In this document: one piece after another, positions 20,776 through 47,776 of the stretch
Position numbering within the stretch: position 1 is the first letter of the stretch
How the letters are laid out: each line of letters begins with the position of its first letter
Translations under genes and position numbers: made by a program
Assembly: GCA_022769125.1 (NCBI GenBank)
Contig: JALEKN010000012.1
Span: 1 to 64,000 of the forward strand
Origin: Agathobacter sp.
Lineage (GTDB): Bacteria > Bacillota > Clostridia > Lachnospirales > Lachnospiraceae
DNA: 64,000 nt
Direction of reading: 5' to 3'
Notes under the pieces: generated by a model
Database searches by the model: none
The model's input: the letters and a program-made list of their open reading frames with translations, nothing else
What the model was told of the DNA's origin: nothing

Positions 20776-21132
20776 TGTGATGGCTGTGGAAGATTTTGTG
20801 CTGAAACCATCACATAGGAAAAATGCTGTGTGATGGCTGTGAGGAATTTTGCGCTGAAACCATCACAAAGAAAAGAAGCTGTGTGATGGCTGCGAGGAAT
20901 TTTGTGCTGAAACCATTACAAAGAAAAGAGATTGTGTGATGGTTATGAGGAATTTTGCACTGAAATCATCACAAGGAGCGGAAAACGTGTGATGGCTATG
21001 AGAAATTTGGCGCTGAAACCATCACATAGGAAAAAAGCTGTGTGATGGTTATGAGGAATTTTGTGCTGAAACCATCACAAGGAGCGGAAAGCGTGTGATG
21101 GCTATGAGAGATTTTGCGTAATAACCATCATA
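20776..21132. repeat. Array of seven 53-bp tandem repeats with palindromic ends
   Basis: Units start at 20776, 20829, 20882, 20935, 20988, 21041 and 21094, an exact 53-bp period. Each has a 39-bp core that begins TGTGATGG and ends CCATCACA (8-bp inverted ends), with a conserved middle around GAATTTTG and GCTGAAA, then a 14-bp purine-rich linker. Linkers come in two kinds, AAGAAAAG-like and AGGAGCGG-like, with the latter after units 4 and 6. Unit 3 has ATTACA, unit 4 TCATCACA and unit 7 is the most degenerate. Each core can form a hairpin in RNA or a protein site in DNA. 53 bp is about five helical turns. The array ends 30 bp before the nuclease-like gene. Confidence 0.95.
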
Positions 21133-21162
21133 GAACAACAAAAAATTAAAAGGAGAGGCCTA

Positions 21163-21969
21163 ATGGGAAAAAAAGAGATAATTCTACCGGAGTTGGTAGA
21201 GAGAAAAAGAGTACTTGAAAAGACAATAAAAAAGGCAGAACAAATATTATCAAAGAAGGTAGACGGGTATCTTCAGGTTAACAGACATGATGGACATTAT
21301 AGATATTATATGAAAGATGATCAGGAAGCCGGACAGGAAAATCGCAAAAGAAAATATATAAAGGATATTAATATTGCAAAAGCCATTGCAAACAGAGATT
21401 ATGCAAAGCAGATAATTAAAAGTGCTTCCCATGAATTGAAACAGGTTGATACATTGATAAAAACATATAGTCAGGCAACGGCAGATGAATGTTATAAAAG
21501 ACTTCATCCGGGCAGGCAAATTCTTGTGACACCACTTATTGCTGATGATGAGCAATATGCAAAGTCCTGGTTGGCAATCTCTGCACAGGAACGCAATTCA
21601 TATCCCGCGGCATCCTCAATTCTGACGGAAAACAACGAAATGGTACGATCGAAGTCAGAAAAAATAATCGCAGACAAATTGAAGCTGTCGGGAATTCCAT
21701 ATGTATACGAGAAACCGCTTAAACTTGGGCCTATTACCAAATACCCGGATTTCACAGTTTTGAACAAGAGGACGAGAAAAGAATACTATTGGGAGCATAT
21801 GGGAATGATGGACAGCCCGGATTATTTTAAGGAGGCAATGGAGAAAATCGAATTGTATCAAAGACACGGTATTATTCCGGGAAAAAACTTGATTATTACA
21901 TATGAGACAGACAGGAAGCCGTTATCGGTCAAGTCAGTTGAAATATTTATCAAAGAATACCTCCTATAA
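21163..21969 (+). CDS. Putative PD-(D/E)XK nuclease-fold protein downstream of the repeat array
   Basis: 268 residues, cytoplasmic. Residues 1-120 are Lys/Glu-rich helices around a YLQVNRHDGHYRYYM beta hairpin (about 37-51). Residues about 160-265 look like a PD-(D/E)XK core: RSKSEKIIADKL (Glu), KYPDFTVL (Asp), then YYWEHMGMMD (Glu then His), followed by a helix and LIITYET. This arrangement is that of restriction-endonuclease-like folds, but I cannot confirm it by alignment. AAGGAG lies 8 bases before ATG 21163. No methyltransferase, helicase or toxin/antitoxin partner is adjacent. The 53-bp array immediately upstream is the only associated feature. Confidence 0.65.
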   Translation: MGKKEIILPELVERKRVLEKTIKKAEQILSKKVDGYLQVNRHDGHYRYYMKDDQEAGQENRKRKYIKDINIAKAIANRDYAKQIIKSASHELKQVDTLIKTYSQATADECYKRLHPGRQILVTPLIADDEQYAKSWLAISAQERNSYPAASSILTENNEMVRSKSEKIIADKLKLSGIPYVYEKPLKLGPITKYPDFTVLNKRTRKEYYWEHMGMMDSPDYFKEAMEKIELYQRHGIIPGKNLIITYETDRKPLSVKSVEIFIKEYLL

Positions 21970-37100: not shown

Positions 37101-39139
37101 TTGACGGAAACAGCACAAACAACGCAGCAAACGGAGCCAATACCTATGGCAACAATGATGGGCTTTATCATGGTGGAGATTTTGCAGGTGTAACCGAAAA
37201 GTTAGATTACTTAAAGGACCTTGGAATCAACACCATTTGGATTACTCCGATCGTAGAGAACATTCCGGGTGTGACAGTTACTGGAACAGGAAGCGAAGAT
37301 GTTCCATATAACTCTGCTTATCATGGTTATTGGGCAAGTGATTTTACAAAATTAAATCCGTCACTTGGAACAGAAGCAGAATTTACCAAAATGATTGAAG
37401 AAGCGCACAAACGCGGAATTAAGATCATGGTAGATATCGTTGTCAATCATGCCGGCTACGGCACCGAGGATTCATTCAATGCACTTTTGAACGGAAAGAA
37501 CATGATCCGCGATACAGATGATACCATTTCCGGAAGCGACCAGAAGGATTCCCTTTCCGGATTGCCGGATTTCAAGACGGAAGACGCTGATGTAAGGGCA
37601 CTTCTGGTAAAATGGCAGACCGATTGGGTCAAGAATTTTGGTATCGACTATTTCCGTGTGGATACTGTTAAGCATGTTGAAGGAACCACATGGGCAGCAC
37701 TTAAGAATTCTCTTACCGAAGTTGACCCGGAATTTAAGATGATCGGTGAGTATGCAGGTGGCGGCTATGCATTTAACGGAGATACACTTGGCTCAGGGGA
37801 GATGGATTCCGTTCTGGACTTCGACTTCAATGATTGGGCAACGAATTTTGTGTCAGGAAAGATCGCTGATGTGGAGACTTCTATGTCTGCCCGCAATGAC
37901 AAACTGAACAATACATATATGACGGGACAGTTCCTGGGAAGCCATGATGAAGATGGATTCAAGTATAACCTGATCCACAACAAGAATATGAGCGAGGATG
38001 ACGCAAATGCAGCAGCGCTTGTTGCAGCATCCCTGCAGATTACCGCAAAGGGACAGCCGGTTATCTATTATGGAGAAGAAATCGGCCTGACCGGAGCAAA
38101 TAATTATCCGTATCAGACCAACCGTTATGATTTTGACTGGAGCCTGACAACGGATTCCAACAAGACCTATCAGCATTATAAGAAGATGCTTGCTATCCGG
38201 AACGCTTATACAGATGTATTCGCAAGAGGAACAAGAACCACGCTGAATGCATCGGATGCAGATGGCATTGACGTATTCGAAAGAACATATAACGGACAGA
38301 AGTTGGTTGTTGCATTAAATATCAAAGCCGAGACAAAGGACGTTTCTGTAAGTAATCTGGCAGCAGGGGCAACCTACCGCGACGTATATGCAAATAAGGA
38401 TTATGTGGCTGATGAAAGCGGAGTGCTTACGGTTTTGGTACCGGCGGCAAAGGACGGTGGCACGGTTGTGCTTGTTAAGACACAGGATAAGCCATCTGAT
38501 AAGCCATCTGATAAGCCATCCGATGAACCATCCGATAAGCCATCTGATAAGCCATCCGATAAGCCATCTGATGAACCGTCCGATACACCGGCAGAACAGC
38601 CGACAGCTGCTCCGGCGCAGGATGGCAATGTTACCGCAGCGGATAAGGCGGAAACAGTGGCAGAAACGAAGGAGCCTGTGGCAAAGAAGAATGTTAAGGC
38701 AGATGTTTCCGACCTGGCGCCAAAGGCGAGAGTTACCACCAACAAAAAGGGTGAGGCTAAGCTAATTACATTAGGAAAGACCAAAGATCCGGTTGTGCTT
38801 GTACGTTCTAAGACAACGATCGACGGTGTTACCTATGAGATAACCGCAGTCAGCAAGAATGCTTTTGCAAAGTGTGGAAAAGATACCTGGAAGGTTACGC
38901 TGTCAAAGAGCATTACAAAGCTTGAGGCAAATGCATTTACGGGAAGCCGGTTAAAGCAGTTTAACGTATATGCAAGAACCGCACCGGAAGTGTCAAAGAA
39001 AGCTTTTGATGGTGTGGATACAAAAGAGATGACCGTGAAGGTCACCATGAAGATGAGCAAAAAAGAATTCAAGAAATTTGAAAAAGCTCTTCGCAAGGCC
39101 GGATTTGAAGGCAAAATTATTCAGATGAAATATCACTAA
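34175..39139 (+). CDS. Giant secreted modular alpha-amylase (GH13) with several starch-binding modules
   Basis: 1654 residues from ATG 34175 (AGGAGAGG upstream). Signal peptide about 1-42. Then an N-terminal beta module, three repeats resembling CBM26 (about 175-280, 310-410 and 412-520), two CBM41-like modules (about 525-745) and a connecting domain. The GH13 barrel runs from about 960 to 1400: DIVVNH near 1087, FRVDTVKH with nucleophile Asp near 1162, IGEY with Glu near 1190 and GSHD near 1257. A Pro-Ser-Asp-Lys repeat linker (about 1438-1470) leads to a C-terminal BspA-like leucine-rich module (AFAKCGKDTWKVTLSKSITK). It should endo-hydrolyse starch while bound to granules and the cell wall. 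Far longer than ordinary amylases; similar giant amylases occur in gut Lachnospiraceae. Confidence 0.92.
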   Translation: MKKRETFSKHGICARVLSFLLAFAMVVTMGTFSKIGQIVTKADDGGINVRVHVKIPSDWGWETPSLWFQGKPVTLEDVGEQTHITGWGESDYGYPLTREPDDFYTGVIKGNVTNLQFLDVSAPSGRVISNAYDSKMTQYVSENITDLYYILKDNAWTWYTDKEGTSVLPELDGVEDCTVTVHYENTSKWSKVCVQASEGGSWNAIAGYENYKEDVGVEVSADPEKANWYTLKITKKNDTQLNLIFNAGKWEDTNQTDNINVALTGKTSLELWCSGNKSTGTKVLVEAPESWLNPTTPEEPEEPQITTCELTLHYKNAYGENPAVYMYNGSDNPAGSWPGEYLTADPDHEGWYYVHLSVSAEKDYTVIFNGKSGKTKDLTGMVTKGKTTAEYWYDASEGEVFSETLPEGWKYKTTVYYHAPTWAEAYVYMWGGDSSISGPGTGGIKWPGEKAVPVEGKTGWYEASFTQDAKTDFSCIFNNNNGIQTANINVAVTAANTELWVTGTKDDGDTTVSKTATKEWLGEAAKPYTFKLYYCNPDLLDTDASATTKDLWMWNAGLNEDYKFTGTWYDEENDVTWLTQEITVDGKFIGKDVGLKARYDYTKGWDGGADSDRSFTLDRDTDIYYYVDGKNPTSEKPVLTAIEARYINFEYTNPSLDDTAAPEFYSWTVGGVNNSKLVALTRQADGTWTARIKVSSTCDKVSFVVALNSSLDPWVKDGGDHSIEFPLAQKNLFVKMEAGKEPVLSAPLNTGYEINTTENKAYIYYRNDKALAAGTLADMTVKAEVNGGLVDMAYVPENKRFEAAVALTNGRTHYRYQVDGEYETDAFNTDRENVDGTDYSYFEYYKLDATVTATVMNDKFNYNENNVVKLNVVQNRDGANENDPELQITEASLDASALGGSNVLKIEPELKAVTISAAVDTALGMKTLPIKVKDQFGNIYKTSAQVEVVAREKSDAADDFDWDESIIYFMVTDRFFDGNSTNNAANGANTYGNNDGLYHGGDFAGVTEKLDYLKDLGINTIWITPIVENIPGVTVTGTGSEDVPYNSAYHGYWASDFTKLNPSLGTEAEFTKMIEEAHKRGIKIMVDIVVNHAGYGTEDSFNALLNGKNMIRDTDDTISGSDQKDSLSGLPDFKTEDADVRALLVKWQTDWVKNFGIDYFRVDTVKHVEGTTWAALKNSLTEVDPEFKMIGEYAGGGYAFNGDTLGSGEMDSVLDFDFNDWATNFVSGKIADVETSMSARNDKLNNTYMTGQFLGSHDEDGFKYNLIHNKNMSEDDANAAALVAASLQITAKGQPVIYYGEEIGLTGANNYPYQTNRYDFDWSLTTDSNKTYQHYKKMLAIRNAYTDVFARGTRTTLNASDADGIDVFERTYNGQKLVVALNIKAETKDVSVSNLAAGATYRDVYANKDYVADESGVLTVLVPAAKDGGTVVLVKTQDKPSDKPSDKPSDEPSDKPSDKPSDKPSDEPSDTPAEQPTAAPAQDGNVTAADKAETVAETKEPVAKKNVKADVSDLAPKARVTTNKKGEAKLITLGKTKDPVVLVRSKTTIDGVTYEITAVSKNAFAKCGKDTWKVTLSKSITKLEANAFTGSRLKQFNVYARTAPEVSKKAFDGVDTKEMTVKVTMKMSKKEFKKFEKALRKAGFEGKIIQMKYH
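38487..38584. repeat. 12-bp minisatellite encoding the Pro-Ser-Asp-Lys linker
   Basis: About eight tandem copies of GATAAGCCATCT-like units, with GAA or ACA variants, inside the amylase gene. The linker length is likely to vary between strains by slippage. Confidence 0.85.
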
Positions 39140-47538: not shown

Positions 47539-47587
47539 AAAGAAGATAAAGTTGTAGCAGCAGCTACGACCGATTATATAAGAAAAG

Positions 47588-47752
47588 CAGGATAGAGGTT
47601 GCGCGAATTATCAGTACCTTATAGGATGCAGCAGGAGCAGGAGAATATAAGGGAAAGGAAGAGCGCCGAAAGTATGCGGCGTCTGCAGTTGTATGCTTGG
47701 GCATGGAGCGAACAGTTTCATGACTGTCATCGTAAGATGGAGGGCTATCAGA
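47588..47752 (+). promoter_or_regulatory. Lysine riboswitch (L-box)
   Basis: P1 is closed by GATAG (47591-47595) and CTATC (47745-47749). Conserved L-box stretches are present in order: AGAGGTTGCGCGAA, ATTATCAGTA, GGAAAGGAAGAGCGCCGAAA, TTGGGCATGG and the final AAGATGGAGGGCTATC. A terminator follows. Known members bind lysine and then favour termination, lowering lysine-pathway expression. dapA directly downstream agrees. Confidence 0.93.
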
Positions 47753-47776
47753 AGTTTCGGTAATCCGGAGATTTTT

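Follow-up and report, generated by a model that had tools for sequence, protein, structure and literature searches.

Known systems and the locus compared with them

According to PMC3116915, P. fluorescens SBW25 harbors three RAYTs, each accompanied by an adjacent REPIN cluster of its own, and the ordered clusters take the form of tandem repeats. The REP/RAYT enzyme is described in PMC3733652 as an HUH Y1 tyrosine transposase, whose palindrome is tagged with GTAG or CGTC. The locus discussed here lies in a window of 64,000 nucleotides (the whole stretch analyzed, positions 1 to 64,000 of contig JALEKN010000012.1 from Agathobacter sp., termed the host below), in which seven tandem palindromes directly precede a nuclease gene. 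The interpretation towards which we lean is a two-part, REPIN-RAYT-like repeat system, composed of an unrelated, solitary Vsr/EDxHD-like endonuclease and phased arrays of palindromes in double-stranded DNA.

The likeness resides in a distinctive enzyme with its own palindrome family beside it and further copies elsewhere in the genome, and in the presence of several unrelated enzyme-repeat pairs in one genome, which are three in the host. In contrast to the HUH Y1 transposase, the enzyme here is a Vsr/EDxHD-like endonuclease, and no HUH Y1 Pfam match was obtained for the window protein, nor among the 25 families listed, out of 47, for 60 members. The repeats differ as well, since tandem phased arrays of about 3-19 units replace what are mainly single doublets, short arms enclose long interiors, and neither a GTAG nor a CGTC end tag is present in the consensus of 71 units of the window family alone, TGTGATGGCT...AGCCATCACA. 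No component homologous to a known repeat-spreading system was found, while the behavior has a known analogue. The partnership of nuclease and repeat looks so far undescribed, and no account of such a nuclease with palindromic arrays was found within open-licence papers.

The palindromic array

The features of the array and of the gene behind it are as follows (base pairs, bp).

20776..20814, + strand: array unit 1, 39-bp imperfect palindrome (pattern match, linker reading)
20829..20867, + strand: array unit 2 (pattern match, linker reading)
20882..20920, + strand: array unit 3, right arm CCATTACA (unit comparison)
20935..20973, + strand: array unit 4, right arm TCATCACA (unit comparison)
20988..21026, + strand: array unit 5 (pattern match, linker reading)
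21041..21079, + strand: array unit 6 (pattern match, linker reading)
21094..21132, + strand: array unit 7, the most divergent of the seven, with right arm CCATCATA (unit comparison)
20776..21132, no strand: entire array, period 53 bp, palindrome recurring at 13 other genome sites (repeat scan, genome pattern search)
21151..21158, + strand: ribosome-binding-site-like AGGAGAGG, 4 bp ahead of the start codon (sequence inspection)
21163..21969, + strand: solitary endonuclease gene, 268 amino acids, intact (open reading frame, ORF)
21163..21498, + strand: residues 1-112 at the N-terminus, modeled as two long helices plus a beta hairpin (structure model)
21529..21966, + strand: C-terminal nuclease domain, residues 123-268, with E166, D196, E211 and H212 (domain model, alignment)

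Seven exact 53-bp repeats had been claimed in the initial annotation, of which the count and the constant step of 53 bp were borne out and the exactness was not: both 8-bp arms are perfect in four of the seven 39-bp units, the remaining three deviate in the right arm, and the overall match among the units is about 80%. The pattern TGTGATGG-N23-CCATCACA occurs four times in the window versus none expected from 100 shuffles, and the arms reach about 10 bp in the wider set of 71 units. The linkers, described earlier as two alternating kinds, actually comprise three kinds, arranged as A B B C A C when read by eye. Unique spacers of the CRISPR type are absent from the window array, where linkers and interiors recur, which agrees with the earlier exclusion of CRISPR.

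As had also been stated, the array stops 30 bp before the gene, with the last unit ending at 21132 and the ATG at 21163. The array fills the leader of the nuclease gene, and no sigma-70-like promoter was found between the two. Both points favor the main rival, a regulatory one, in which the phased palindromes are operators through which the protein represses its own gene and, by way of orphan arrays, regulates others, with the nuclease activity secondary and the dispersal a duplication kept by selection. We regard this explanation as unlikely, albeit deserving serious consideration, and the evidence bearing on it is given in several places below.

The nuclease

A confident model of the C-terminal domain displays an alpha-beta nuclease core that matches solved restriction-endonuclease-like members, in keeping with the PD-(D/E)XK fold proposed from the sequence alone, and supports the assignment of the window protein as a predicted Vsr/EDxHD-like member of that superfamily. 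Glu166, Asp196 and the adjacent Glu211-His212 are invariant in all 60 relatives aligned; the glutamate and aspartate of the motif first suggested were thus retained, whereas its Glu-x-His gives way to two neighboring residues. Position 213 is occupied by F, L, M, E or another residue and never by K in these relatives, so that the canonical lysine two residues past the second acidic residue is missing, and the Vsr/EDxHD-like variant therefore fits better. Of the residues that may correspond to the EDxHD reference motif, E166, D196 and H212 are found in 60/60 and D217 in 53/60. The invariance of the catalytic residues suggests that cleavage matters, which argues against the operator explanation.

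No Pfam or NCBIfam family was assigned to the window protein, a PDB sequence search returned nothing convincing, and the N-terminal part, which may serve in dimerization or DNA binding, matched no known family. Foldseek with the full model gave weak scores only (best 7.8e-3, an R2 retrotransposon), and the model of the nuclease domain performed better. Structural alignments of this domain with TnsA of Tn7, Bax1, Vsr and the archaeal Hjc resolvases, which have the restriction-endonuclease-like fold in common with it, show identities of 12-24%.

The gene is flanked upstream by a glycogen phosphorylase gene and downstream by an unassigned 191-amino-acid ORF followed by an aldo-keto reductase gene. 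These three nearest neighbors belong to ordinary Pfam families or to none, and no methyltransferase, helicase, transposase or repair partner was detected among them by Pfam, which distinguishes the locus from the systems of TnsA, Bax1, Vsr and Hjc as well as from restriction-modification with its cognate methyltransferase. Unlike the EDxHD homing endonuclease I-Bth0305I, the window gene is not in an intron, and the enzyme's presumed targets are the array next to its gene and copies of that array. The absence of methylase and helicase noted earlier thus applies to the three tested neighbors; the nuclease domain, in turn, recurs fused to RecD-like helicases. One such fusion, L158:1518-5255, encodes a RecD-like helicase of superfamily 1 (1245 amino acids) and is preceded by a 499-amino-acid ORF. 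Large ORFs with the nuclease domain also occur in L159 and L160, and L158 alone among the three fusions is shown to be a helicase by Pfam. Plasmid matches are restricted to the nuclease domain, and most of the genes concerned are annotated as AAA ATPases or RecD/RecQ-like helicases.

These fusions and plasmid genes lend some support to an anti-phage defence role, in which the nuclease would attack foreign DNA and the arrays would serve as self-marks, decoys or a titration device. The PADLOC candidate PDC-S68 has a C-terminal nuclease domain homologous to that of the window protein (E 5e-30, covering only positions 1101-1218 of 1221), and a weak PADLOC match to HEAT_CxxC_PDDEXK was obtained too. 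Against this role, the PDC-S68 match concerns the domain only and PDC-S68, whose models are helicase-nucleases of about 1200-1270 amino acids versus 268 here, is itself only a candidate; the three neighbors are ordinary in the Pfam scan (not PADLOC); and the three large fusions, with their true flanks, have no palindromic array within 1.2 kilobases (kb). The genome-wide orphan arrays presented below count against it as well, as we know of no defence system of which they would be expected. Defence is hence considered improbable.

Association of the nuclease with arrays across relatives

Sixty genomes of the host genus, 150 genera of the host family Lachnospiraceae and 398 genomes of the phylum were sampled. 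The family nuclease is present in 29/60 genus genomes, the host included, and in 52/150 family genera. At 1e-20, 12 of the 398 phylum genomes are positive, where near-full-length matches occur only within the host family and the domain alone elsewhere; near-full-length relatives also exist in a Tissierellia metagenome-assembled genome and in Mobilibacterium timonense. From part of the listed matches, 138 genes (one a duplicate, 130 near full length) were analyzed, and an array was defined as at least three identical pairs of a 6-mer and its reverse complement at one arm distance within 1.2 kb.

Near-full-length genes carry arrays upstream in 44/120 cases, downstream in 14/126 and on either side in 54/116, in comparison with 0/120 for upstream DNA shuffled ten times each with its composition kept. 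At a laxer threshold of two pairs, upstream arrays number 61/120 versus 8/120 in shuffles. The seven remaining genes, partial or fused, yielded no array. The association of nuclease and arrays is therefore real with high confidence, relatives do carry nearby repeats in place of never doing so, and the number of units differs between arrays, a variation that the initial annotation had envisaged. A contig end lies close to the gene upstream only in 12 and downstream only in 4 of 45 cases, a bias that repeats would be expected to cause.

The host genome contains three family genes, each with a different upstream array, namely TGTGATGG at 53 bp, GCATCG at 62 bp and ATGCCCC at about 52 bp. The last of these, too imperfect for the array detector, adjoins the third gene, which is broken by stops (L157 / G000:C35:2399-2971). 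Long downstream arrays were also observed, eight CACCCA palindromes at 75 bp in L179 and, in L197 with arrays on both sides, thirteen CCCCAA pairs at about 52 bp; arrays are therefore not always upstream. That some arrays lie downstream of the nuclease or between convergent genes does not suit operators.

A further alternative is hitch-hiking, in which an independent repeat family merely accumulates near a dispensable accessory gene, as the existence of family genes without arrays and of arrays without genes would allow. That three different repeats adjoin all three host genes, and that more generally 54/116 genes have an array beside them, speaks against it and, together with the coupling described next, renders it highly improbable.

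Coupling between palindrome and protein

The palindromes are diverse among the nucleases and include GTCAAC, CGGGGTA, GGGACAT, GCGAACAAAA, AATTGGGTGTAG, CCGCGCGG and others. Each nuclease has its own palindrome, and palindromes are alike mainly between close relatives. For the 54 nucleases that combine an intact protein with a defined half-site, the similarity of half-sites tracks protein identity (Mantel r 0.25, reached in 0/5000 permutations); half-sites are alike in 6/11 pairs at 60% protein identity or above and in 0-2% of pairs in the bins below 50%. This tracking is not expected of a hitch-hiking repeat, and the presence in the host genome of three paralogues, each with a different repeat, is consistent with cognate pairs.

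Helical phasing and the question of DNA or RNA

Forty-six arrays have dominant periods that cluster at 50-54, 61-64, 71-75 and 85-86 bp, about five to eight helical turns, with one at 92 bp whose true unit is 46. Tested against a repeat of 10.5 bp, these periods reach a vector strength of 0.784 (Rayleigh 5e-13), 10.50 being the optimum in a scan from 8 to 14, and jittered periods never exceeded 0.46 in 20,000 trials. As several of the 46 arrays have a gene or palindrome in common, a set was thinned to one array per gene and half-site type, in which 30 arrays give a vector strength of 0.803 (Rayleigh 4e-9, best repeat 10.25); the 79 distinct steps give 0.677. Irregular arrays shift their step by whole turns (62/83, 73/52, 64/85, 72/61, 72/62 and 51/82), with 89/73 as an exception. 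The five-turn spacing first remarked on in the window thus holds, as helical phasing at the DNA level, across many arrays. Such whole-turn quantization is expected when proteins line one side of B-DNA but would not be expected of RNA hairpins, and it would also suit cooperative operators.

An RNA system, in which transcripts of the array would be processed into hairpin RNAs that act as guides for the nuclease or regulate it, by analogy with TIGR-Tas or CRISPR, has accordingly to face periods that follow B-DNA turns. Single units can be folded as RNA, as can any palindrome. On the downstream-gene strand, one-sided arm changes yield 40 A.C versus 21 G.U mismatches of 710 cells (20 versus 16 distinct array-positions), the reverse of what an RNA stem would lead one to expect, so that a selected stem on that strand is not supported and the hairpin-RNA alternative raised initially is not favored. 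The interiors are 0.72 alike within TGTGATGG arrays and at least 0.9 alike from unit to unit in some arrays, too alike for variable guides, and no Rfam match was found at the window array. This explanation is rated the most improbable of those considered.

TIGR-Tas, to which a coiled-coil match had pointed, resembles the locus in having a tandem array of structured units next to a single protein that carries helices at its N-terminus. It was set aside on account of spacers and phasing, given that two variable spacers of 8-12 nucleotides per unit are found there and none here, where the units are phased to B-DNA. At the sequence level, no Nop domain was detected in the window protein (Pfam, E 1) or among the 25 families listed, out of 47, for the 60 members (E 0.1).

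Orphan arrays and dispersal

The pattern GTRATGG-N19-27-CCATYAC has 64 copies in the host genome, all inside the analyzed array loci, and its reversed control none. Besides the window array, the palindrome forms 13 arrays that lie away from the nuclease and comprise 3-7 units each; their steps measure 53 bp, apart from two of 52 bp. The repeat is thus scattered over unrelated loci, a pattern that had been named in advance as telling against a local element, and the 13 orphan arrays therefore point to a repeat family that is dispersed and has its cognate nuclease, and not to one local operator. Orphan arrays also occur in a second genome, G012, where 27 exact CGGGGTA palindromes make up seven arrays with steps of 51-53 bp; one array adjoins the nuclease of that genome, and the other six, including one with three recognized units, lie at other sites. 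Cognate repeats beside the enzyme together with dispersed copies, as in REP/RAYT systems, are hence present, the dispersed copies being unseen in G016, G030 and G040.

Among the 71 units, the likeness of arms is 0.91 inside an array and 0.88 from array to array, and that of interiors 0.72 and 0.52; four of the ten arm pairs are invariant. The six measured G012 arrays give 0.94/0.88 for arms and 0.78/0.42 for interiors. All of these arm values are inflated by the picking of units by their arms (up to 3-4 mismatches), with the constant step no part of the selection. Arms that vary less than interiors would fit operators, subject to the same bias.

The two orphan palindromes examined across the genus occur almost exclusively in genomes that have them at their nuclease (the host only of 60; G012 and G016), another finding at odds with hitch-hiking. 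The window array as BLASTN query had no match in the 59 other genomes of the genus, and the G012 palindrome has a single stray match in each of five other genus genomes. The search for orphans covered three palindromes by pattern plus BLASTN.

The palindrome of the second host nuclease has 19 copies, at its gene and three other places. One array segment is duplicated there, in that the copy on C56 extends over 475 bp, 92% identical and colinear, and comprises the array and the first ~90 bp of the second nuclease gene. The arrays on C42, C54 and C7 are 83% identical over 300-350 bp. Searches with a hidden Markov model revealed no nuclease remnants at orphan arrays, although BLASTN shows the ~90-bp 5' end in the C56 copy.

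A conserved flank of about 100 bp with a CTTCTTGCCCGAAGGGCAAGAAG-like hairpin stands beside several orphan TGTGATGG arrays (L217:6856, L211:16750 on the minus strand, L212:2843 on the minus strand, L216:9132) and also about 0.7 kb from one array (L216). This flank may mark the copied unit.

Among the genes behind the orphan arrays of L211, L212 and L219, several identified by eye, are GNAT acetyltransferases, a lysine-decarboxylase/LOG-like protein, a NUDIX-like ORF and an oxidoreductase, which are typical accessory cargo. What is apparently the same cation-antiporter gene follows an array in the host (L217:7497-9391, TGTGATGG, with CarD between) and in G012 (L276:1651-3189, CGGGGTA), two species with different palindromes. 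The inspected downstream genes have no common theme, which is unfavorable to the operator explanation.

Proposed mechanism and its assessment

In the two-part system that we favor, and with moderate confidence in the mechanism, the nuclease would recognize its own tandem palindromes as double-stranded DNA. A spacing of five, six, seven or eight turns would place successive dimers on one face of the DNA and so permit cooperative binding. As the leader or promoter region is taken up by the array, the nuclease probably controls its own expression through it. Occasional cutting or nicking of array DNA may set off a repair process in which array segments are copied to new sites and existing arrays are lengthened or homogenized in place, whereupon seeded copies, sometimes with adjoining sequence, would retain arms and phase. 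What the data show directly is the association, the coupling of palindrome and protein, the phasing, the orphan arrays of two genomes, one duplicated array segment, the conserved catalytic residues and the class of fold. Binding, cleavage, autoregulation, dispersal by cut and repair, and hence mobility of the arrays, are proposed steps, and the function could be mobility, regulation or both.

A bolder version is put forward tentatively, and we doubt it more than we trust it. In this version, a self-spreading endonuclease would build phased target arrays, disperse them upstream of genes by cut and repair, diversify its target fast and regulate itself by way of its own array; nucleases below about 50% identity would recognize different palindromes, and the propagating system would have evolved independently of the RAYTs.

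Several results weigh against the favored two-part system. With both flanks available, 62/116 genes show no array at the threshold; many of these arrays may be decayed, more than 1.2 kb away or cut off, and some genes may be truly without one. As arrays adjoin their gene, plain co-inheritance could partly explain the coupling of palindrome and protein. All repeats reported by Tandem Repeats Finder (TRF) near family genes, palindromic or not, give a less sharp vector strength of 0.54 (100 repeats), and the TRF control away from family genes comprises 4 arrays only, too small a number. To these is added the inflated arm conservation already mentioned. G016, a close relative of G012 in its nuclease, has the palindrome only beside that nuclease and no orphans, and in G030 and G040 arrays were found only at their own nuclease by BLASTN, which recovered only six of the 13 orphan arrays in the host. 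In 12/13 host and 4/6 G012 cases, thus 16/19 (by eye, short overlapping ORFs discounted), the orphan array is followed by a gene in the same direction, a bias that would suit a regulatory role as well and supports the operator explanation. An empty site could not be shown because flanking synteny is not conserved in the genus: the flanks of one orphan array, compared with 20 relatives, matched only G012 and a distant genome, and loci of aldo-keto reductase orthologues in the genus had no window neighbor genes in reach, with one unrelated AraC-like match. Finally, a cutting enzyme that is encoded next to its own sites and has no methylase would be expected to damage its cell, unless it acts by nicking or requires DNA in a special form.

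Other features of the window

A lysine riboswitch at 47585-47755 on the + strand (101 bits) is the sole Rfam match at gathering level in the window. A tandem repeat of 12/24/48 bp (GATAAGCCATCY) occupies 38486-38585, possibly within a coding region.

Significance

Among dispersed bacterial palindromes linked to an enzyme, the only well-described ones that we have met are the REPINs and their RAYTs, to which the present system, if it holds true, would add a second, unrelated solution. The system is frequent in the host family and genus and has no protein family entry. Its helical quantization leads to a sharp physical prediction, namely cooperative binding on one face of the DNA, and the dozens of natural nuclease-palindrome pairs constitute a resource on how a small endonuclease changes its sequence specificity. 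Meanwhile, the origin of some intergenic repeat arrays of gut Firmicutes becomes testable.
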